Shown here piece after piece: positions 29,181 through 56,032 of a stretch of 64,000 bases of DNA. Source of the DNA: Candidatus Nezhaarchaeota archaeon (GTDB taxonomy: Archaea > Thermoproteota > Methanomethylicia > Nezhaarchaeales > WYZ-LMO8); the NCBI GenBank assembly GCA_025059375.1, contig JANXDO010000004.1, positions 62,001 to 126,000 of the forward strand, given 5' to 3'. How positions within the stretch are numbered: position 1 is the first letter of the stretch; every line of letters begins with the position of its first letter. The translations under genes were made by a program, and so were the position numbers. Under the pieces are notes generated by a model. That model searched no databases. It was not told the origin of the DNA and saw only the letters and a list, made by a program, of their open reading frames with translations.

Positions 29181-29280
29181 TGGCGGGCCCGGGGGGATTT
29201 GAACCCCCGACCGTCAGCTTAGAAGGCTTGCGGCAACCTCAACAGTTGATGCCGCGCTATCCGGGCTGCGCCACGGGCCC
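29181..29280 (-). tRNA. tRNA-Arg(TCT) with non-canonical intron at 29/30, CCA encoded
   Basis: Acceptor GGGCCCG/CGGGCCC, D stem GCGC/GCGC, T arm GGGGG-TTCAAAT-CCCCC, discriminator G and genomic CCA (29181-29183). The anticodon loop CTTCTAA (anticodon TCT) and 3' stem GCTGA are continuous, but the 5' stem is split. Removing 22 nt at 29228-29249 joins GCA to GC and restores CAGC/GCTG, leaving one G-A at the stem top. The cut sites fit bulges CAT and AAG beside helices GCGG/CCGC and CAAC/GTTG. A GATTTATAATC box lies about 25-35 nt upstream. Confidence 0.9.
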
Positions 29281-45059: not shown

Positions 45060-46065
45060 TCTTCATCACCATATCCAATATCTCCTTCACAACCTCTTGC
45101 ACACCAATACACTTAAGAGTGCTGCACACCAAGACCTTCTCACCCCCCAACCTTTCAATAGCTCCCCTAATTTGTTCTTCAGAGGCAATATCGGCTTTAG
45201 TCAACGCTACTACCATTGGCTTCTCCCTAAACATCTCCTTCACGCTTCGAAACACATTGATCTGGTAATCTAGAGAGTACCCACAAGTCTCTGTGGGATC
45301 TATTAGAAACACTATGCCCCCTTCAAGGTTTTTAAGTGCAACAATGGCTTGAAGCTCTATCTTATTTCTCTCCCCTAACGGTCTATCAAGTAAACCCGGT
45401 GTATCTACAACCTGCGCTATGACTCCATGCTCTCCAATTATGTGTCCAACGCTTACACTCTTAGTTGTAAATGGGTACTCAGCAATCTCTGGTTTTGCTG
45501 TTGAGACACATCTAACAAATGAAGACTTTCCTACATTAGGAGCCCCGCTAATGATAATTATGGGCACTGAGAAGTGAAATGTTGGAAGCCTCTTGAACAT
45601 ACTAATTCCAGACAACAAGCTTAGCTCATCCTTAAGCTCCTTAATTATTGATGCAACACGTCCATAGTACTCCCTACGAGCAACCACGACCTCTGGAATC
45701 GTCTTAGCGCCCCTGATTTTAGACACATAGCTTCTACAAAGCTTCTCAACAAGTACGGTAGCCTTAGATACCTTAGCCATTGAGAGCTTGAACGTACTCG
45801 GATCAATAAAGATATAGAATATGTCCCTATAGAAAGGGTGGAGAGAATCTACCTTCGGTATACCAGTTTTAATTTCACTTAACTTACTGATGATAATGGA
45901 GGCTACAGTCTTCACCCTCTTAATCTCCTTGAGCTTAGCTATCAGTAGCCTATCCTTTCTAGTGGGCATCTTAATGGTTACCTTAGATGCTCTCCTGAAA
46001 GCCACATCTATTAGCTCCTCAGGGGACGGTATACTTGGTAACTTGCTGAATGGTTGTTGCTCCAT
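45028..46065 (-). CDS. Nog1-type GTPase (large-subunit biogenesis)
   Basis: A 345-residue GTP-binding protein of the Obg/Nog1 branch. An N-terminal helical domain (residues 1-160) precedes the G domain with ISGAPNVGKSSFVR (G1), YPFTTKSVSVGH (G2), DTPGLLDRP (G3) and LTKADIAS (G4). Archaeal Nog1 is thought to act in 50S assembly. It is divergent from the proteasome gene across a 100-bp spacer and overlaps rtcA. Confidence 0.92.
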   Translation of the reverse strand: MEQQPFSKLPSIPSPEELIDVAFRRASKVTIKMPTRKDRLLIAKLKEIKRVKTVASIIISKLSEIKTGIPKVDSLHPFYRDIFYIFIDPSTFKLSMAKVSKATVLVEKLCRSYVSKIRGAKTIPEVVVARREYYGRVASIIKELKDELSLLSGISMFKRLPTFHFSVPIIIISGAPNVGKSSFVRCVSTAKPEIAEYPFTTKSVSVGHIIGEHGVIAQVVDTPGLLDRPLGERNKIELQAIVALKNLEGGIVFLIDPTETCGYSLDYQINVFRSVKEMFREKPMVVALTKADIASEEQIRGAIERLGGEKVLVCSTLKCIGVQEVVKEILDMVMKSVGRDRWQYA

Positions 46066-46165
46066 AGCATCCTAATAGCATATGAGGACCTAGTATCCTT
46101 ATTAACCTGCTTAGTGAAAAAGGGTTTAAGCAGATCTAGGCTGCTAAAGTTAGGGAGGAAGCATC

Positions 46166-46795
46166 ATGTATAACATTAGAAGTGACGGTCAGATGGGAGC
46201 GCACTGGGCACTAGGCGCCACAACTGTAGGGCTTAGAGTCGAGGAGGGTGTAGTCCTTGCATCAGAGAAGAGGGTTAGCTATGGCTTTACTGTGACGAGC
46301 AAATCCGCAAAGAAGATTTTCAAGATAACAGATTACCTTGGAATAGCTTGTGCTGGACTAATAGGAGATATGCAAGCTATTGCTAGGAGCCTAAGAGCTG
46401 AGGTCAAGTTGTATGAGCTAGACGTAAGCAGGAGAATGCCCATTAAGGCAGCTGCAAAGTTACTAGCTAACATCCTATTCAGTCAAAGATACATGCCTCT
46501 AATGAGCGAGACACTGGTCGGTGGGTTAGATAACATTGGCCCCCACTTATACGTGCTAGATGCTATAGGCTCTCTCATAGAGGATGACTATGCAGCCCTT
46601 GGTAGTGGATCAACGATAGCCATAGGCGTATTGGAGACAAACTATAGAAAGAACATGTCTATAGAGGAAGCCATAAACCTAGCAATGAGATCGGTTAAAG
46701 CAGCCATAGAGCGGGACGCTTTAAGCGGCGATGGAATCGACATGCTAATAATAACTGAGAGTAAAGCTGAAGAGAGATTTGAACCAGTTAAGTAG
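46166..46795 (+). CDS. psmB: Proteasome beta subunit, apparently lacking catalytic Thr1
   Basis: A 209-residue 20S proteasome beta subunit with a 17-residue leader. The mature N-terminus of active subunits reads G|TTTVG; here it is LGATTVGLRVEEGVVLASEKR, so Ala takes the place of Thr1, while Lys33 (in SEKR) and the GSGSTIAIG and SGDGIDML regions remain. Related beta subunits with Ala at this position occur in crenarchaea and assemble with an active partner. A second, catalytic beta gene should lie elsewhere in the genome. Confidence 0.9.
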   Translation: MYNIRSDGQMGAHWALGATTVGLRVEEGVVLASEKRVSYGFTVTSKSAKKIFKITDYLGIACAGLIGDMQAIARSLRAEVKLYELDVSRRMPIKAAAKLLANILFSQRYMPLMSETLVGGLDNIGPHLYVLDAIGSLIEDDYAALGSGSTIAIGVLETNYRKNMSIEEAINLAMRSVKAAIERDALSGDGIDMLIITESKAEERFEPVK

Positions 46796-46796
46796 C

Positions 46797-47774
46797 TTAA
46801 GGCACTACCTTGACCGGTTGACCCACTCTAGAAAGCAGAGCCACTCGTGAAATCAAGCTATCAGCTATCAGCTGGTAACCGGTCAATTTACTCAATTTCT
46901 TTGCAACCTCAAGTACATGATGGTGCTTAGGCATATTCTCCAACTTCAATCTAAACCTTGAATACCCTAAATACATGTAACCCTTAACCTCCACGTACCA
47001 GGGCTCAGCGATGGATACTAACTTAGCAAAGCCCTCTAAGTCCCCTTCGCGGTCATTAATTCCTCTTATCAAAGTTATCCTAATGACTGTGGGGCACGAG
47101 AAATCCCTTAAAAGATCCAAGCTCCTCAATAGTCTATGCCAACAATCCTCGAGACTACTCCTTGATAATGCTTTAAACTTGTCTTCAGATGACGTGTTGA
47201 CGGAGATGTAGAGCTGTGATGGCTGCCCCCCACTTAATAACCTTACTAACCGCTCTGGATACATGCCATTAGTAACGAGAAATGTCGTGAAGCCCTTACT
47301 CCTACAAAGCTCTATGAATTCACTGAGCCTATCATAGAGAGTTGGCTCTCCGGCCAAACTTATTGCAAAGTGTCTTGGGTGTAAAGCCTCTACGTACCTC
47401 TTCTTTATCACCTTTGGATTTGACTTGTAACCACTCAATATCCTAAATTGAGCTTTAATCGCTTGATCAAAGAGGCTCTTCTCATCATCATAGGTGATAA
47501 AGTCCTCATTCTTTAACAAGGGGACGTTGGGATCCCCCCTTTCCACTCTCCAGCAATGAAGACAATTATTGGGGCAAGCTAATGTGGGGGTCATTTGTAT
47601 ACATCTATGACTCTCTATACCATACCAATTCTTATAGCAGAACCTGTCGGTGGTTAAGGCTACATGAAGCCAGTGACACTTCTTTACAGCTGCAGTCTTC
47701 CTAGTACCAATTAACTGATACTTCTGCTGTTTCAGCAGATTGATGACATCTGATTTAGCTGCTTGAGCTAGCAT
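46797..47774 (-). CDS. taw1: 4-demethylwyosine synthase (TYW1/Taw1)
   Basis: A 325-residue radical SAM enzyme that builds the tricyclic wyosine base at G37 of tRNA-Phe. The SAM cluster motif is CPNCLHCWR-like (LACPNNCLHCWRVERGDP, about residues 67-84), with the second cluster cysteines upstream (CHWL, FCYKNW, HRCIQM). ISLAGEPTLY and LVTNGMYPERL follow. It ends 1 bp from the psmB stop, convergent. Flavin-mononucleotide domains of eukaryotic TYW1 are absent, as usual in archaea. Confidence 0.94.
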   Translation of the reverse strand: MLAQAAKSDVINLLKQQKYQLIGTRKTAAVKKCHWLHVALTTDRFCYKNWYGIESHRCIQMTPTLACPNNCLHCWRVERGDPNVPLLKNEDFITYDDEKSLFDQAIKAQFRILSGYKSNPKVIKKRYVEALHPRHFAISLAGEPTLYDRLSEFIELCRSKGFTTFLVTNGMYPERLVRLLSGGQPSQLYISVNTSSEDKFKALSRSSLEDCWHRLLRSLDLLRDFSCPTVIRITLIRGINDREGDLEGFAKLVSIAEPWYVEVKGYMYLGYSRFRLKLENMPKHHHVLEVAKKLSKLTGYQLIADSLISRVALLSRVGQPVKVVP

Positions 47775-47843
47775 TTATGCCCTCTCTTGCCCTCCTAAAC
47801 CTGTAGACACTAAGCGAGATAAAGATGTTGGGGTGCCCGCTAA

Positions 47844-48620
47844 ATGGGCTTAACATTCGTGGGCATAGGACTAACAGAATCTGGACTAACAATAGAGGGA
47901 TTAAGAGAAGCTCTATGTGCTGACTACATATTCATTGATACCTACACAAGCATCTTACCCGAGGAGGCATTGGATACATTAAGCTCATTGATAGGTAAGA
48001 AGATAATCGCATTAAAAAGAGTTGACTTAGAAGGTCGGGGAATGGAAAGAATCATAGATTTAGCAAGGGAAAGCAAAGTTGTCCTCTTAGTAGCGGGTGA
48101 TCCATTCATAGCTACAACTCACGTGTCACTTAAAGTTGAAGCGGCTAAAGCAGGCGTACTAGTAAAGTACATACCCTCAGCATCTATACAGACAGTCATA
48201 CCAGGACTTACAGGCTTATCAAGCTACAAGCTCAGTAAATCCGCAACAATAGTGTTCCCAGATAAGGGCTCAAACATCACGGCCTACGAAACAGTCAAGG
48301 AGAACAAGTCGCGTGGATTACATACAATCCTATATTTAGATATCGATGTTGAAAATTCCAGAGCTATGACGATAAATGAAGGAGTAAAAATACTTTTAGA
48401 GCTTGAGAATGAGAGGGGTGAAGGAGTAATAAGCAGCGAAACACTCATGATTGGCATTGCAAGAGCCTGCTGGAGAGACAGTGTTATAAAGGCTGCAAAG
48501 CCACATAAACTCCTAAGCTATGATTTCGGCCCCCCACCTCACGTACTAGTAGTCCCTGGTCAGCTCCACTTCATGGAGCTTGAAGCCCTTAAAATCTTCG
48601 CAAATATGGAGGATCCCTAA
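47844..48620 (+). CDS. dphB: Diphthine synthase
   Basis: A 258-residue methyltransferase that trimethylates the modified histidine of elongation factor 2 on the way to diphthamide. Family blocks: LTFVGIGLTESGLTIEGL, LLVAGDPFIATTHVSL, IPSASIQTVIPGLTGLSSYK and FPDKGSNITAYETVKEN. The stop overlaps the DUF357 start (TAATG). Confidence 0.95.
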   Translation: MGLTFVGIGLTESGLTIEGLREALCADYIFIDTYTSILPEEALDTLSSLIGKKIIALKRVDLEGRGMERIIDLARESKVVLLVAGDPFIATTHVSLKVEAAKAGVLVKYIPSASIQTVIPGLTGLSSYKLSKSATIVFPDKGSNITAYETVKENKSRGLHTILYLDIDVENSRAMTINEGVKILLELENERGEGVISSETLMIGIARACWRDSVIKAAKPHKLLSYDFGPPPHVLVVPGQLHFMELEALKIFANMEDP

Positions 48621-48886
48621 TGAGTACATGGAGAAGCGATGAGGAGAGACTCTCAAAGTACTTTAATTACGTAGAGAGACTTATGAAGAGCATGTCCGTC
48701 AAGTCCCCTGAATTTCTTAAAGATAAAGTTGAGATGATAGTAGATAACGCAAAACGCTACTACGAGGACGCTAAATATTACATGAAGTTGAGGGACTACG
48801 CTACAAGCTACATATGCATAGCATACTGTGAAGGTCTACTGGATGCACTTAAACTCCTAAATCTAGTGGAAGTGACCGAGTCATGA
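48620..48886 (+). CDS. DUF357 family protein
   Basis: An 88-residue helical protein of the archaeal DUF357 family (YVERLMKSM ... IVDNAKRYYEDAKYYMKLRDY ... YCEGLLDALKLLNLV). Function unknown. It overlaps both dphB and ribL, a gene order seen repeatedly in archaea, so it may work with one of these enzymes. Confidence 0.85.
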   Translation: MSTWRSDEERLSKYFNYVERLMKSMSVKSPEFLKDKVEMIVDNAKRYYEDAKYYMKLRDYATSYICIAYCEGLLDALKLLNLVEVTES

Positions 48887-49344
48887 GCGAGAAGAGCAAG
48901 AAGGTAATGGTTGCAGGAGTCTTCGACATAATACATCCCGGTCACATACACCTCATATCAAAGGCATCAGAACTGGGGAACGTAGTAGTAGTCGTAGCCA
49001 GAGACTCTACCGTTGAAAGAATTAAGGGAAGGAAGCCCATAGTGCCCGAAGAACAGCGCCTAGAAGTCGTTAAAAACATAAAGTACGTCTCAAGTGCTGT
49101 CTTAGGGCATGAAGGGGAAGACATGCTCAAAATAGTTGAAGAAATAAAACCAGACATAATACTGCTAGGGCCAGATCAAAACTTTAATGAAGAAAAGCTG
49201 AAGAGAGATCTTGAAGCTAGGGGATTAAAGATAGAAGTGCTAAGACTTCATGAACCCTACAGAGCTCACAAGCTATGTAGCACCTCAAAGATAATAAAGG
49301 AGATAATAACGAGAAGTAAGGAATTTGAATTCCTACTAAAATGA
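48883..49344 (+). CDS. ribL: FAD synthetase RibL (cytidylyltransferase family)
   Basis: A 153-residue nucleotidyltransferase with the HxGH motif (VFDIIHPGHIHLISKA, about residues 14-29) and the ISSTSKII-like CSTSKIIKEI near the C-terminus. Archaeal RibL makes FAD from FMN and CTP or ATP. It overlaps DUF357 by 4 bp, closing a three-gene operon. FAD is used by the ETF and GMC-type flavoproteins in this window. Other members of the fold use glycerol phosphate, so specificity is likely rather than certain. Confidence 0.85.
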   Translation: MSEKSKKVMVAGVFDIIHPGHIHLISKASELGNVVVVVARDSTVERIKGRKPIVPEEQRLEVVKNIKYVSSAVLGHEGEDMLKIVEEIKPDIILLGPDQNFNEEKLKRDLEARGLKIEVLRLHEPYRAHKLCSTSKIIKEIITRSKEFEFLLK

Positions 49345-49554
49345 GCTGCCCCAAGCCACAACCATGCTCAGCAGGCTAAAATTAACAATAAACCACATAA
49401 GAAACTCAACTTAATAATTAAGCCCCTCAGTAAACCTCGCTAGGAGAGCCCTTAACATTATGGGGTGTAGTGAGTGTCAATGACCCTTAGATAGGTGAAG
49501 CCACATCAAGCCTACAAATTTGATGCGATATAAAAAAGCAAGGAGAGTAAGGTG

Positions 49555-49860
49555 TCATTCCACTTTTACCCTTACGCCCTTCAACGGCTTAGCTAGAGGG
49601 ACTGTGACCGTTAAAAGCCCCTCTTTAAATGAAGCTTTTGCCTCATTGGGTTTTACTGCGTGAGCTAGAAGCCAGCATCCAAAGTACTCAACATCATTCC
49701 TCGGAGCTTTAACGCATACACCCGTCTCCGTCACTTCAAGCTCTATATTCTTCTTGTCAACCCCCGGCAACTCTATCTCAATCGTATACTTCTCCTCATC
49801 ATGATAAAAGCAAGCAGTCGGCAGAATCGGTATCCTTATCTTCTCACTTTCCTTTGACAT
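49555..49860 (-). CDS. Hsp20/alpha-crystallin-like protein
   Basis: A 101-residue small heat-shock-like protein from the ATG at 49860 (MSKESEKIRIPILPTACFYH). The alpha-crystallin domain shows IEIELPGVDKKNIELEVTET, KASFKEGLLTVTVPLAKP, with the signature GLLTV(T/R)VP. The extension of the frame to 49938 looks like leader sequence. There is no C-terminal IxI motif, so it may form small oligomers only. Stands alone. Confidence 0.85.
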   Translation of the reverse strand: MSKESEKIRIPILPTACFYHDEEKYTIEIELPGVDKKNIELEVTETGVCVKAPRNDVEYFGCWLLAHAVKPNEAKASFKEGLLTVTVPLAKPLKGVRVKVE

Positions 49861-50136
49861 AGTTTTCTTAATCTTGAAACTAACAAATAAACCTCTCTCA
49901 ATTTTTCCCTCACCCCGATTTTTCAAGCCATAATGCACGCCTATTATAGTTCAAGTTAAAGACCCCCTATCGAAACTCGATGAGCTAAAGAAGACACCTC
50001 CACGTCAATGAGTTAGTCATCGACACTACGAGGACCTAAATTAATCGAATAGTTAAGCAACTTAAACCAAAGGATATAACGCTATTGGTCGCATCATAAA
50101 AAAATGACGAGGAGTGGCAAGGAAAAGCTCTTAGAG

Positions 50137-50562
50137 CTAAAGTTCCTCTAGAAGCGATGTGAAGAAGTCGTGATGTTCCTCTTCATCTTTTAAGATACCT
50201 TGGAATAGAAAGGCAGTCGTTACATCGCCCTCCTTTAAGGCCCTCTCTATTATCGTCTTGTAGAGCTTTATTGCATCCTCCTCGTCCCTCTTATCCTGCT
50301 CGATCATCTCCCTCAGAGTCTCTCCTACACGTACCTCTTTAGGCTTGGTTGTAGGCTTACCGCCCAAGTAAAAGAGCCTCTCAGCAATAGCCTCTGCATG
50401 CTTCATCTCCGTTATCGCTATCTTCTTCAACTCCTCCTGAACAGCAAAACCCTTAACGCCGCGCCACTGCACATGCTGCCACATGTACTGAATCGACACC
50501 TGAATTTCTCGCGCAATAGCATCATTCAATAGATCCAATAACTCCTTAGAGGCCAAGACCAA
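50137..50562 (-). CDS. Ferritin-like/bacterioferritin-like protein
   Basis: A 141-residue four-helix bundle protein. Metal ligands typical of ferritin-like di-iron centres are visible: E in AIAREIQVSIQYMWQH (about residue 18), EMKHAE (about 51-56), ERAL and KDEEEHHDFF near the C-terminus. No heme methionine can be assigned. Likely binds or oxidises iron, as in bacterioferritin or Dps-like cages. It is alone, with spacers on both sides. Confidence 0.8.
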   Translation of the reverse strand: MVLASKELLDLLNDAIAREIQVSIQYMWQHVQWRGVKGFAVQEELKKIAITEMKHAEAIAERLFYLGGKPTTKPKEVRVGETLREMIEQDKRDEEDAIKLYKTIIERALKEGDVTTAFLFQGILKDEEEHHDFFTSLLEEL

Positions 50563-51196
50563 CCCCTATTTGGTGGTACATCCTTGAGGCTTAAATAATT
50601 TGCTTTGAACCCTTCGTGCTTTCGACTTCAAATTTATTAGCCACTCAATTAAAAGATACACGCAGGTCATCATAATCCTTGCACTAGATAGCCAACACAA
50701 ATTTAAAACACATGCAGTTCTAACATCATGGGGATCAATAGACATGCCACTATCATCAAAACCGTTTATTGACAGGAGAAGAACTAGAACTTAGCCTTCA
50801 TACTAATGATCACCCTCTTACCTCTGATTACGTCATAGCTGATCACCCTTTTAAAGCTATATGGCAACTAATCATCAGTTTTGAATCAATCTACTAGAGG
50901 TGCAAGAAGCAGCTTACCTTAGGATGATGATAATTAAAGACTTCTTGAAACGGGAATGACAGGTAGAAGTAAATAACCCTCTGCTGACTTTAAGAAGCAT
51001 GAAGTGAGCTCTCATGCCTAGACCTAAGAGCAGCTTATAATCAGATAACAACCTCTTAAATTCAACATCCACTTACTTTGAGGTGTATATTAAAGTAGCT
51101 CTTAAAACCTAGATGGAATACTATAGCATGCGTGCACCTGCCATAGTTAAGTTTAATAAGTTAAAGAAGCTCTATTTTTGTGGTGGGTGTTAAAGA
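50563..51196. other. Intergenic spacer, 634 bp, no gene recognised
   Basis: AT-rich and broken by stops in all frames. It contains promoter-like strings (TTTAATAAGTTAAAG near 51150) before the interrupted gene at 51197. No RNA gene or repeat was recognised. Together with the decayed genes to its right it forms a low-coding patch that ends at tRNA-Met. Confidence 0.4.
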
Positions 51197-51715
51197 GTGT
51201 CGACGATATCTCCGGATGAGCTAATTAATGAGGTTAAACCTTGGGAGAAGGATTCTTGGAAAAGTTTCATCGAGAAACATGTTGTATCCATTTAGGTTCT
51301 TGCAGACACAGTTGCGAAGCAATTTGTTGGTGATTCATCCGCAGAAGTTGCAAAGGCTTTAGCAGAAAAGGCTTTAAGCGTTATGAAGGTAGCTGAAAGT
51401 GTGATTGGTGAAGTCAGAGCTGAATACGAGCCACCTGATGACCCCATCGAGTGCTTAAGACTCCTCGTAGAAAGATCAGGGAACACCTTCCTCGGTGTGG
51501 CTGGGGCCGGAAAGTACACATTATTCGCCTGGACCCTTAGGAAGGTTACACGCGAATACCTGTTAGAAGCCCTTTACCCCACTCTTAAAAATGAGGAACT
51601 AAAGGGAAAGGGGATATGCGTCAAATTCTTCTTACCCAACATTCATGCCAAGACGCTTATGCTGCTTGACGGAGTGGTAAAGAGCTTATTGTTGGTTGAG
51701 GGGCCTCACGACTAA
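51197..51715 (+). pseudogene. Interrupted gene of unknown family (in-frame TAG)
   Basis: From the GTG at 51197 one frame reads MSTISPDELINEVKPWEKDS and on to VVSI, a TAG at 51293-51295, then continues VLADTVAKQFVGDSSAEVAK through AGAGKYTLFAWTLRK to a stop at 51713-51715. Without the TAG it would encode about 171 residues. The intact part has an N-terminal helix and a basic, aromatic C-terminal half; I do not recognise the family. It is followed by more degraded coding-like sequence up to tRNA-Met. Recent inactivation is the simplest reading. Confidence 0.5.
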
Positions 51716-51941
51716 GCAATGGAGGACAATATGCAGATGTTTAAGTGAGCAAAGACATGAGCAGATGGAAAGGAGGCCGCCGCCGCATCGAATCACGACT
51801 GGAGGCGTTCTAAGATTCAACGATACTGTTGGAAGACGTGGCGTTAAGGGCGAATGGCTCTTGCTTGGCCCCTTGGGCAAGGGGCTTCTTCTTTAAGTTC
51901 CTGCGCTCAAAGGACCTCGAGGAGACGCTCGAGCTAGTTAT
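51716..51941 (+). pseudogene. Degraded coding-like fragment before tRNA-Met
   Basis: A frame reading GGVLRFNDTVGRRGVKGEWL then LLGPLGKG runs into a stop near 51896; shifting frame at about 51885 gives FFKFLRSKDLEETLELVIGA up to the tRNA. The region is richer in G and C than the spacers around it. This suggests one frameshifted gene remnant abutting the 3' end of tRNA-Met. Family unknown. Confidence 0.35.
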
Positions 51942-52065
51942 TGGTGCCGGGGGCGGGAGTTTCGGGTTATGACCCATTCGAACCCGCGATAACCGGACTC
52001 CACCTCTGGCCTCGTTTTAATGAGATTATGAGTCCGGCGCCCTAGGCCGCCTAGGCGACCCCGGC
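51942..52065 (-). tRNA. tRNA-Met(CAT), probably elongator, with two introns, CCA encoded
   Basis: Acceptor GCCGGGG/CCCCGGC, anticodon stem CCGGA/TCCGG, anticodon CAT, T stem GCGGG/CCCGC, discriminator A and genomic CCA (51942-51944). A first intron of about 28 nt lies in the anticodon loop (51999-52026, ends uncertain by 1-2 nt). A second, 18 nt (51959-51976), splits the T-loop at 59/60; it fits a perfect bulge-helix-bulge: TTCG/CGAA, GGGT/ACCC, bulges AAT and ACT. The acceptor suggests elongator Met rather than initiator or Ile. Confidence 0.93.
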
Positions 52066-52100
52066 ACCATGATAACAAGCGTAATTAAGGCTTTAAAACT

Positions 52101-52799
52101 TTACTTAGCTCTTTCGAGAACTTCAATACCATCAGGCTTACCAACGTAGATCACATCAGCTATATTACAGAATAAGCCAACCTCAATGACTCCGGTTATG
52201 CTTTTTATCCTAGCTTCCATGCTGCATGGATCGTCTATGGGGTTAAAGTACGCGTCCACTATGAAGTTGCCGTTATCAGTTACGAGGGGTCCATCCTTAA
52301 ATCTTCCAGCCCCCCTCAGTTCTGGTTTCCCATCAATCTCTCTAATCCTCCTCATTACGTACCTATAGGCGAACGGTAGGACCTCTATCGGTATGGGCTT
52401 CGTAGAGCACAACTTGTCAACAACCTTATCATAGCTCACAATGTACACCCTCCGTGAGGACATGCAGGCTACAACCTTTTCTCTCGCTAGAGCAGCTCCC
52501 CTGCCCTTAATCATGTTTAATTGGCGATCAACTTCATCAGCTCCATCAATAATAACATCAATGTAATCAACAAGCTCAACAGGTACAAGTTCAAACCCAT
52601 ACTTTATAGCCATTTGGATAGAGTGATACGATGTGGGAACAACCTTCACTTTCAAACCTCTCTTAACTTCACTTCTCAACAAAGAAGCAAAACATTCCAC
52701 AGTTGACCCTGTCCCCAACCCCAAAATCATTCCATCACGTACCTCACGCAAAGCAGCTTTAGCAGCTTGAATCTTACAACTTTCAATACTCACAAACAA
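52101..52799 (-). CDS. rpiA: Ribose-5-phosphate isomerase A
   Basis: A 232-residue RpiA that interconverts ribulose 5-phosphate and ribose 5-phosphate. Conserved: GLGTGSTVECFASLL (about residues 29-43), IDGADEVDRQLNMIKGRGAA and the catalytic glutamate with KVVA region. The product feeds prs (1.0 kb) and pdxS (37.1 kb). Its stop is 35 bp from the tRNA-Met 5' end, same strand, with a TTTTAAAG box between that may drive the tRNA. Confidence 0.95.
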   Translation of the reverse strand: MFVSIESCKIQAAKAALREVRDGMILGLGTGSTVECFASLLRSEVKRGLKVKVVPTSYHSIQMAIKYGFELVPVELVDYIDVIIDGADEVDRQLNMIKGRGAALAREKVVACMSSRRVYIVSYDKVVDKLCSTKPIPIEVLPFAYRYVMRRIREIDGKPELRGAGRFKDGPLVTDNGNFIVDAYFNPIDDPCSMEARIKSITGVIEVGLFCNIADVIYVGKPDGIEVLERAK

Positions 52800-53183
52800 C
52801 CCCTCGGAGAGGCTTACCTCATAGCTTTAGCGATTCACATTTATGAGATTATCCAAGCACACTATATAGAGTTCTAGTATCTTCCATAGTAATTAAGGTT
52901 TAAAGAAGGGTTAATGAGCTGAAACCATCTACACTGATCGCCTTTCACTCCTATACTCTCACTAAGTTCTCTAGCTCAAAACCAACATCATGGACCTTTA
53001 GGAGCAATCTCGTCTATCCTACGGACTCAATAGCGAGTCGTCGCACAGTTACTTGAACTCAAGCATGACATATCTTAGCTCTTATAGCCTCTTCTCAAAC
53101 CGACTTAAACTTCTACAGGTTTGCACTGTCCTTGCGATTAGTCGACAATTAGCAAGAGGGAGGTACTTACACTTCTAGTTTAA
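52800..53183. other. Intergenic spacer, 384 bp, no gene recognised
   Basis: Between the rpiA start and the 3' end of tRNA-Thr(GGT). Stops occur in all frames. Upstream of rpiA, CACTATATAGAG near 52860 is a TATA-like element. A short inverted pair (TTGCGA/TCG...TTAGCAA area, about 53133-53155) is imperfect. Nothing else was supported. Confidence 0.4.
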
Positions 53184-53267
53184 AGCCCCGGGCGGGATTT
53201 GAACCCGCGACCCCTGCCTATTTGACTTATACCAAGGCAGTGCTCCAGCCAGCTGAGCTACCGGGGC
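53184..53267 (-). tRNA. tRNA-Thr(GGT) with a very short intron
   Basis: Acceptor GCCCCGG/CCGGGGC, D stem GCTC/GAGC, anticodon stem CTGCC/GGCAG, T arm GCGGG-TTCAAAT-CCCGC, discriminator T, no encoded CCA. Seventeen bases lie between the anticodon stem halves, so about 10 nt (53220-53229, TAAGTCAAAT) must be removed to leave loop TTGGTAA. The site forms a bulge-helix-loop: helix TTGG/TCAA and 3-nt bulge ATA next to the stem. A CTTTAAGCTTG box lies about 30 nt upstream. Confidence 0.93.
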
Positions 53268-53311
53268 TCAACTACCCAAGTTTCGTCAAGTCAAGCTTAA
53301 AGTTTTTCTGT

Positions 53312-53335
53312 AAAAGGAGAGGAGGGGGGAGGGGG
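53312..53335 (+). repeat. Purine-only G-rich tract
   Basis: Twenty-four consecutive purines with runs GG, GG, GGGGGG and GGGGG lie 45 bp upstream of tRNA-Thr(GGT) and 120 bp upstream of the AbrB-PhoU gene, in otherwise AT-rich sequence. It could form a two- or three-layer G-quadruplex or a triplex. No function is assigned. Confidence 0.4.
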
Positions 53336-53401
53336 CCATCTTGATGTATTGATAAGTTTAACTACTTAAATTTAAACCAGACTAAGTAAGCAAAGAAGAA
53401 A

Positions 53402-53410
53402 AATATATAT
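53402..53410 (+). promoter_or_regulatory. TATA box of AbrB-PhoU gene
   Basis: AATATATAT at 53402-53410, flanked by an A-rich BRE-like stretch, lies 45-53 nt before the preferred ATG at 53455 and would start transcription near 53435. AAGGG at 53441-53445 is a ribosome-binding candidate. Confidence 0.5.
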
Positions 53411-53454
53411 CTTTAGTTTGTAAAAATTATAGTGCTATAAAAGGGATGATAGCG

Positions 53455-54489
53455 ATGGAAATTAGAAATATACAGCTTGTAGGCAAATACACCTTTACTT
53501 TATCGCTACCTAAGGAGTGGGTTCAAAGGTGGAATTTAAAGAAGGGAGATAGAGTAGTAATGATGGAGGAGGATGATGGATCTTTAAGAATATCTCCTGA
53601 AATCAAGGAGAAGGTAAGTCGAGCAGCAATTTTTAAAATAAATGTTGATAAATGTAATCAACCATGGCTCCTTGAAAGGCTTCTGATAGGTAGCTATATA
53701 CTGGGCAAAGAGACAATAGAGATAGTTTCAGAGAGAGGGATAAGACCTGAACATTTAATGGAGATGAGGAAAGCATTAAAGAAGCTTACAGGCCTCAACG
53801 TCGTTGAGGAGTCCCAGAAATACTTAGCTCTACAATGCCTCATAGAACCAATAAAGTTTCCAGTTGAAAGGCTCATTAAGAGGCTTTACAACTTAACGAC
53901 AATGATGCACTTAGATAGCATCAATGCTCTTATTAACGGAAGTAGAGAGCTTGCTATAAGCGTATTACAACGCGAAGCCGAAGTGGATACCGTCTACTGG
54001 CTTACAGTTAGGCAATTAGTGCTAGCAGCTGATGATAGATCCATAGCGAGAGAAATAGGAATTAAGGACATAAAGCATCAGCAAGCTATGAGGGTTGTAG
54101 CAAAGGTTCTCGAGTCGATGGCTGATCAAACAGAAAACATAGCTAGAACAGCATTAAACCTAATAGAGCTTAACTTAAAGCTGGATGAATCAACTTCAGC
54201 CATGATAAAGGAGTTTAGTGATGCTGTAAACAGGATACACGATAAAGCTTTGAGTGCATACCTAAAACGTGACCTTCACCTAGCTAATGAGGCGGTAAAC
54301 GAAAGTAAGGAAGTTGAGAAGTATGAGATTAAGATTAATGAAGCTGTAATTTCATCGGTTAAAAATGCAAGGCTTCTAATGGCAATTTATAGGATAACGA
54401 GCTCACTTAAAGCTATGAGCAGGTATGCTGCTGATATAGCCGAGATAGCAATAAATAGGTTTATAGCTGAAGAGGAGCCATCATCCTAG
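53455..54489 (+). CDS. PhoU-domain regulator with N-terminal AbrB/SpoVT domain
   Basis: About 344 residues. The N-terminal 45 residues (MEIRNIQLVGKYTFTLSLPK, WNLKKGDRVVMMEEDDGSL) form an AbrB/SpoVT-type DNA-binding swapped-hairpin domain. The rest is two three-helix PhoU-like repeats with metal-ligand-like acidic patches (REAEVDTVYW, ESMADQTENIARTAL). This fusion is common in archaea and is expected to act as a phosphate-uptake regulator, though no Pst genes are adjacent. An ATG at 53446 is possible but leaves no spacing to AAGGG. It overlaps the next, convergent gene by 9 bp. Confidence 0.85.
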   Translation: MEIRNIQLVGKYTFTLSLPKEWVQRWNLKKGDRVVMMEEDDGSLRISPEIKEKVSRAAIFKINVDKCNQPWLLERLLIGSYILGKETIEIVSERGIRPEHLMEMRKALKKLTGLNVVEESQKYLALQCLIEPIKFPVERLIKRLYNLTTMMHLDSINALINGSRELAISVLQREAEVDTVYWLTVRQLVLAADDRSIAREIGIKDIKHQQAMRVVAKVLESMADQTENIARTALNLIELNLKLDESTSAMIKEFSDAVNRIHDKALSAYLKRDLHLANEAVNESKEVEKYEIKINEAVISSVKNARLLMAIYRITSSLKAMSRYAADIAEIAINRFIAEEEPSS

Positions 54490-54954
54490 TCTTTCTAATC
54501 TTTTAACCCAATCTACCATTTTATGCCTTTCATAAACTCCAATAACTATGAATATAGCCTCCGCAATTAAACCCAATGGGAGCAGTAATACTGAAGGTGG
54601 AACCAAGACAATGTATGTAACGAGGAAGGCTGCATACACCATGGCAGCTAGAAAACCTCTAGGTATAATCCTGCTTCCCACTTTAGCATAGTGCTTAAAA
54701 GTGAAGTTGACAGCATCAGCTATCAACCTTGGAACATAGTACTTATCACCTCGCTTATCAACAATGCCAAGCCTCTTCATCTCGGCTAAACATTGATTTA
54801 TCAAGGCTTTATTAGAAAAACCCCCAAAATACTTCATCTCATCAATGGTATAACCACTACTCCTCTTCGATAAGTAGAGGAAGAGGCGTAAAGCCCTACC
54901 ACTAAGCTCCTTCCTCACCCTAACTAAGTCGACCTTGATCTCCACACCAACCAT
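54481..54954 (-). CDS. Membrane-bound winged-helix protein
   Basis: A 157-residue protein. Residues about 10-75 form a winged helix (LRLFLYLSKRSSGYTIDEMK, NKALINQCLAEMKRLGIVDK); two hydrophobic segments follow (GFLAAMVYAAFLVTYIVLV and VLLLPLGLIAEAIFIVIGVY), ending in a basic tail. It could be a membrane-tethered regulator. Its end overlaps the AbrB-PhoU gene by 9 bp. Function unknown. Confidence 0.7.
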   Translation of the reverse strand: MVGVEIKVDLVRVRKELSGRALRLFLYLSKRSSGYTIDEMKYFGGFSNKALINQCLAEMKRLGIVDKRGDKYYVPRLIADAVNFTFKHYAKVGSRIIPRGFLAAMVYAAFLVTYIVLVPPSVLLLPLGLIAEAIFIVIGVYERHKMVDWVKRLERLG

Positions 54955-55045
54955 GCTCCTTCCCTAATCACTACCCAACAACACTTTTTCTAAGAAGCAA
55001 CTATATAGCTGTCTCCTAATCAAGATTTGATGCTGGGGTGGGTGT

Positions 55046-55939
55046 TTGAGGGATTCACCATCCTATGAGGAGTTCATGGAGCTAGCTTATAAAGTTAGGG
55101 AGTTGCTGAGGAGAGAACGAAGTAGAGGAGGTGTGGGAAAATATCTCTCGCTAGGCTCTCTAGTTAAGATAAAAGATGATATCGATAGACTAGTGGTGAT
55201 TGGAGACATACATGGAGATTATGATGGCTTAACTAAGATTCTACTTAAAGCCGGTTTAAAGAACCACTTCCCCGACAATACAGTGCTGGTCTTCCTAGGA
55301 GATTACATTGATAGAGGGGTGAAATCACCTCACGTTGTCTACGAAGTCTTTAAGCTTAAGCTGCAACATTCAGACTTTGTGGTGTTACTGAGAGGTAACC
55401 ACGAAGGTCCTCCTGAACTACCTGTGTATCCACACGATTTCCCCATACACCTCAATTACATCTACTTAGAGCGGTGGAAAGAACTGTACGAGTCAATAGT
55501 CAACTGCTTCAATAACTTTTATGCATGCGCTTTTCTTGAAGGCTCACTATTCATGGTTCATGGAGGTCCTCCAACTAAGTTTACGCGACTTGAAGACTTA
55601 ATTAGAGCCCATGAAGACATATCCACGATTGAGGAGCTCTTATGGAATGACCCGATGGAACATAAAGGCAAAATTCCATCACCTAGAGGCGCTGGTTACC
55701 TCTTTGGCCCCGATGTAACTGACTATTTTCTAAAGACCATAGGGGCTAAAGTTATTGTTAGGAGCCACGAACCATGCGATGAAGGTTACGAAGTTCACCA
55801 TGGTGGCAAGCTAATAACAATATTCTCTAGAAAGGGTTATCCCTACCATAACAGCAATGCAGCTTACTTAGACATACATAAACCATCACTAATTGAGAAT
55901 GCCTTTCAATTAGCTAGAGAGTGCGTAAGAGTATTTTAG
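55046..55939 (+). CDS. PPP-family Ser/Thr protein phosphatase (archaeal PP1 type)
   Basis: A 297-residue metallophosphatase with the full PPP signature: GDIHGD (about residue 52-57), GDYIDRG (about 86-92), RGNHEG (about 115-120), a histidine in HGGPP, and RSHEP. These bind the two-metal centre and the phosphate. It removes phosphate from Ser/Thr in proteins and could oppose kinases such as the COG2112 protein at 3.9 kb (inference). TTG start behind GGTGGGTG. Alone on its strand. Confidence 0.9.
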   Translation: MRDSPSYEEFMELAYKVRELLRRERSRGGVGKYLSLGSLVKIKDDIDRLVVIGDIHGDYDGLTKILLKAGLKNHFPDNTVLVFLGDYIDRGVKSPHVVYEVFKLKLQHSDFVVLLRGNHEGPPELPVYPHDFPIHLNYIYLERWKELYESIVNCFNNFYACAFLEGSLFMVHGGPPTKFTRLEDLIRAHEDISTIEELLWNDPMEHKGKIPSPRGAGYLFGPDVTDYFLKTIGAKVIVRSHEPCDEGYEVHHGGKLITIFSRKGYPYHNSNAAYLDIHKPSLIENAFQLARECVRVF

Positions 55940-56032
55940 TCCTAGTATACTTACGTTGTCGGTTAAGGGCGTCTAGGACTAATAGCTCAAGATAAATCTC
56001 AAGAGTGATGTAACCCCATGTTGTACGTCTCA

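Follow-up and report, generated by a model that had tools for sequence, protein, structure and literature searches.

The only elongator tRNA-Met gene detected in this archaeal genome (elongator-type body, CAU anticodon) is interrupted by two introns, one in the T-loop, at position 59/60, and one in the anticodon loop. This two-intron structure is well supported by sequence comparison with relatives, and with high confidence we regard the gene as a functional, single-copy gene whose introns would be spliced out by the archaeal machinery. Positions refer to the window, namely the whole stretch of 64,000 nucleotides that was analysed, unless a contig is named. The features are as follows.

51945..52065, minus strand: precursor of the elongator tRNA-Met(CAU), exons plus two introns, 121 nt (sequence, two-intron search, ARAGORN on the spliced form)
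51959..51976, minus strand: T-loop intron, position 59/60, 18 nt, TGGGTCATAACCCGAAAC (empty site in G002, sister introns, bulge-helix-bulge folding)
51998..52025, minus strand: anticodon-loop intron in the 38/39 register, 28 nt, TCTCATTAAAACGAGGCCAGAGGTGGAG (two-intron search, relatives; A38 kept in all relatives)
52091..52098, minus strand: TATA-like box, TTTTAAAG, roughly 30 nt before the tRNA 5' end (TTTAAAG is the conserved form in the five family members)
52101..52799, minus strand: rpiA (encoding ribose-5-phosphate isomerase A), the syntenic gene next upstream, same strand (Pfam PF06026)

Specifically, the tRNA runs on the minus strand from G1 at 52065 to A73 at 51945 and is followed by a genomic CCA at 51944-51942. 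Its 5' part reads GCCGGGG-TC-GCCT-AGGCGGCCTA-GGGC-G-CCGGA-CTCATAA up to the 28-nt intron, and its 3' part reads TCCGG-TTATC-GCGGG-TTCGAA, then the 18-nt intron, then T-CCCGC-CCCCGGC-A. Neither an ARAGORN call nor a match to Rfam RF00005 was obtained with the unspliced precursor. In an exhaustive two-intron search, removal of both introns gave a 75-nt tRNA in which all stems are fully paired, and ARAGORN called this spliced form tRNA-Met(cat); when only the T-loop intron was taken out, ARAGORN run with the intron option reported a tRNA-Met with a 28-nt anticodon intron. Excision of 51959-51976 restores the T-loop TTCGAAT, with both coordinates and sequence as the earlier note on this DNA had given them. 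Among the other tRNAs of the genome, no T-loop intron was found by a pattern that demands GGG/CCC adjoining the loop.

The tRNA-Met gene is adjoined by rpiA in the other family members too, as in several genomes of the class. The region 3' of the tRNA varies among family members while the upstream rpiA is constant; here it holds a decayed open reading frame (window positions 51200-51720) with no Pfam match. An element integrated at the 3' end of the tRNA was ruled out, since no repeat of at least 11 bases of the tRNA region occurs in window positions 46000-56000.

Three further family genomes, G001, G003 and G004, from two sister genera, carry both introns in the same gene; a source in chance insertion or assembly noise is ruled out by this conservation. 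The T-loop introns of the four carriers measure 18, 18, 19 and 20 nt. G002, likewise a family member, carries the anticodon intron and an empty T-loop site (TTCGAAT), and the T-loop intron is absent from the out-of-family relatives whose tRNA-Met was read. When G003 and G004 are spliced in silico, the products are identical 74-mers, identical also to the naturally T-intron-free tRNA of G002; this letter-for-letter match fixes the intron boundaries. The empty site, the conservation in sisters and the identical spliced products bear out the earlier proposal of a tRNA-Met with both a 59/60 and an anticodon-loop intron.

The bulge-helix-bulge motif of the T-loop intron had been described as textbook, which holds for the sisters but not strictly for this copy: the pairing drawn uses one C twice, since AACCCGAA contains three Cs and the inner ACCC and the central CGAA both need the third. 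With a 4-bp central helix, this copy is left with a 4-nt 5' bulge and a 3-bp inner helix, or else with a 2-bp inner helix. At the same place G003 has four Cs and G004 five; the strict motif (4-bp central helix, two 3-nt bulges and an inner helix) fits G003 and G001, nearly fits G004, and is one C short here. The best bulge-helix-bulge of this genome folds at -11.0 kcal/mol, against -13.9 for the minimum-energy hairpin, a gap of 2.9 kcal/mol, while G003 and G004 have the bulge-helix-bulge as their minimum-energy fold. Because of the missing C and the more stable alternative hairpin, we regard this copy's motif as relaxed. Chance does not account for it: composition-preserving shuffles of the 18-mer yielded a comparable 59/60 bulge-helix-bulge in 0.3% of trials. 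The sister introns show a compensatory change in the inner helix (GGGU/ACCC in G003, GGGC/GCCC in G001), and in the central helix a U-A pair is replaced by U-G.

The preference for the hairpin would suit a mature tRNA that keeps the 18 nt as an enlarged T-loop, with no splicing at this site. We consider this very improbable: the empty site of G002 is exactly the spliced form, the sister inserts differ in sequence and length (18-20 nt) and retain the splice motif, and an enlarged T-loop is incompatible with the standard contact between D-loop and T-loop, which it would break. More improbable still is a decayed pseudogene, with another elongator tRNA-Met serving the cell. A 14-contig assembly that is 96% complete leaves some room for a missing copy; against this, no second elongator tRNA-Met was found among the tRNAs collected by search from its 1.47 Mb. 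The earlier note had raised the case of a better tRNA-Met elsewhere, and on checking, the remaining two CAU tRNAs proved to be distinct genes, the initiator (L012, acceptor AGCGGGG) and tRNA-Ile2 (L001); at this level of completeness, a missed second copy is unlikely. In addition, all exon stems of the tRNA-Met pair perfectly, and the gene, its adjacency to rpiA and the TATA-like box are kept across the family.

A further alternative accepts both introns and a spliced tRNA, and places the anticodon intron at 37/38 (51999-52026), with G38 in the mature molecule. This is the commonest intron site, and relatives from f6 and f2 allow a CTCA/TGGG pairing in a canonical 37/38 motif. In the present family, by contrast, the 37/38 register would make position 38 a G in four members and a C in G002, with no 4-bp central helix, whereas the 38/39 register gives A38 in every member. 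In this genome the latter provides, by eye, a TCAT/GTGG pairing with two G-U pairs, bulges AA|T and AG|T and an inner CTC/GAG; pairing of this type has one mismatch in G001 and one in G004. We therefore prefer 38/39, although it is not proven, and regard the canonical register as unlikely, if clearly less so than the two alternatives weighed above. The anticodon introns of tRNA-Met (51998-52026), tRNA-Leu(UAA) (L038) and tRNA-Ser(CGA) (L032) share ATCT...GAGGCCAGA, which suggests that introns may have been copied between tRNA genes.

Returning to a functional gene with two spliced introns, two genes of the tRNA intron endonuclease family (PF01974) are present in the genome, one for an alpha and one for a beta subunit. 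The alpha subunit aligns over its length with Aeropyrum pernix EndA and retains the catalytic residues, including the histidine of DHAPF and the lysine of SVKK; the beta subunit has no catalytic histidine. A gap-free alignment places lysine 40 of the alpha subunit at K44 of A. pernix EndA (3p1z), in the Crenarchaea-specific loop, and a lysine occupies the equivalent place in all 14 alpha sequences printed from the class. The broad specificity of (alpha-beta)2 enzymes is reported to be due to this loop lysine (PMC6379350). A broad-specificity endonuclease, which the earlier note took the intron to imply, does not strictly follow from the intron; alpha and beta genes with the specificity-loop lysine are nonetheless encoded.

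The gene, introns, boundaries, conservation, empty site and enzyme genes are read from sequence, and from these we infer the cuts, their order and the ligation. The transcript would most likely start at the TATA-like promoter just behind rpiA. Two rounds of cutting and ligation would follow, carried out by the EndA alpha-beta endonuclease and then by an RNA ligase, presumably RtcB. At the T-loop, the T-arm stem (49-53/61-65) would act as outer helix, the T-loop TTCG (54-57) would pair with CGAA near the intron 3' end as central helix, and cleavage after A59 and before U60 would restore TTCGAAT. The anticodon-loop intron would be removed likewise, with 38/39 as the best fit. In Cyanidioschyzon merolae, a T-arm intron blocks formation of pseudouridine-55 by Pus4 (PMC9602550); by analogy, T-loop modification may here wait for T-loop splicing.

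Introns at 59/60 are a listed archaeal tRNA intron position (PMC4090602). To place this case in its phylum, 398 genomes were searched with a pattern modelled on a 59/60 intron, with the reversed pattern as control. Matches occurred in 114 genomes, with about 150 hits against about 50 in the control (our own count of the table), and 41 of the 70 loci inspected splice to a good tRNA of one of many isotypes, some with ambiguous anticodons. Such introns lie in the tRNA-Glu(TTC) genes of all six f12 genomes examined and, at L187 and L188, in further tRNAs from the same order as this genome. These data suggest that 59/60 introns are common in the phylum; across many families and isotypes of the sample they are not rare, which qualifies the earlier note's description of them as known mainly from intron-rich thermophilic Thermoproteota, and a trait unique to this family is ruled out. 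The two-intron gene is genuine, but of a kind already known from other archaea, as the position is listed in the literature and widespread in the sample. No publication that we found names this gene or this lineage.

The T-loop intron agrees with described archaeal 59/60 introns in position, bulge-helix-bulge recognition and short length, and differs in its slightly imperfect motif; several introns per tRNA have also been described among archaeal non-canonical introns. Elongator tRNA-Met genes with both a 59/60 and an anticodon-loop intron occur in two other families, in G101 (L259) and G204 (L260). As these families, the intron sequences and their lengths (23 and 28 nt) differ, the introns are probably independent gains. 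In Thermofilum pendens, the exons of tRNA-iMet and tRNA-Tyr are likewise joined at 59/60 via a bulge-helix-bulge, but from circularly permuted genes (PMC3218864), whereas this tRNA-Met is in normal order. The tRNA-Ile(UAU) of C. merolae shares T-loop and anticodon introns with bulge-helix-bulge motifs, yet it is a different tRNA, from a eukaryote, with a D-loop intron as a third (PMC9602550).

Other tRNAs of the genome also appear interrupted. The tRNA-Glu(UUC) gene L040 (G000:C2, ~318164-318225, minus) has a D-loop insertion of about 27 nt, and Rfam detects its 3' part only; tRNA-Trp (L031, G000:C4:45400-45560) apparently carries an intron in the anticodon stem and a second, long one in the anticodon loop, and scores below the Rfam cut-off. 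In tRNA-Arg(UCU) (29184-29280, minus) and tRNA-Arg(CCU) (L037), introns of about 22 nt interrupt the 5' strand of the anticodon stem near 29/30. ARAGORN annotates 53183-53268 (minus) as tRNA-Tyr(gta), but once a 10-nt intron is taken out the sequence reads as tRNA-Thr(GGU), in agreement with the acceptor stems of the other tRNA-Thr genes. The genome also encodes an MCR alpha subunit (PF02249; L189, G000:C3:318813-319193), a possible sign of methane or other alkane metabolism in the host.

In a tree of AlaRS, MCM and RpiA, G001 is basal in the family and G002 lies inside it, among the carriers; the rpiA tree alone supports this placement more weakly. Holding the carriers together, with G005 included although it has no readable tRNA-Met and hence no readable intron state, was rejected (AU p = 0.019), which rules out a single origin without loss. 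The nesting of G002 implies that the T-loop intron was either present early in the family and then lost in G002, or gained twice. That gain and loss of the T-loop intron within the family are selected, for example because mobile elements could no longer integrate into the tRNA 3' end once the T-arm DNA is split, seems improbable.

In conclusion, ARAGORN and Rfam miss a real and essential gene, so that the genome would be annotated by those tools as having no elongator tRNA-Met, and the family offers an example of one T-loop intron that is present in some members and precisely absent from another, with identical spliced products.
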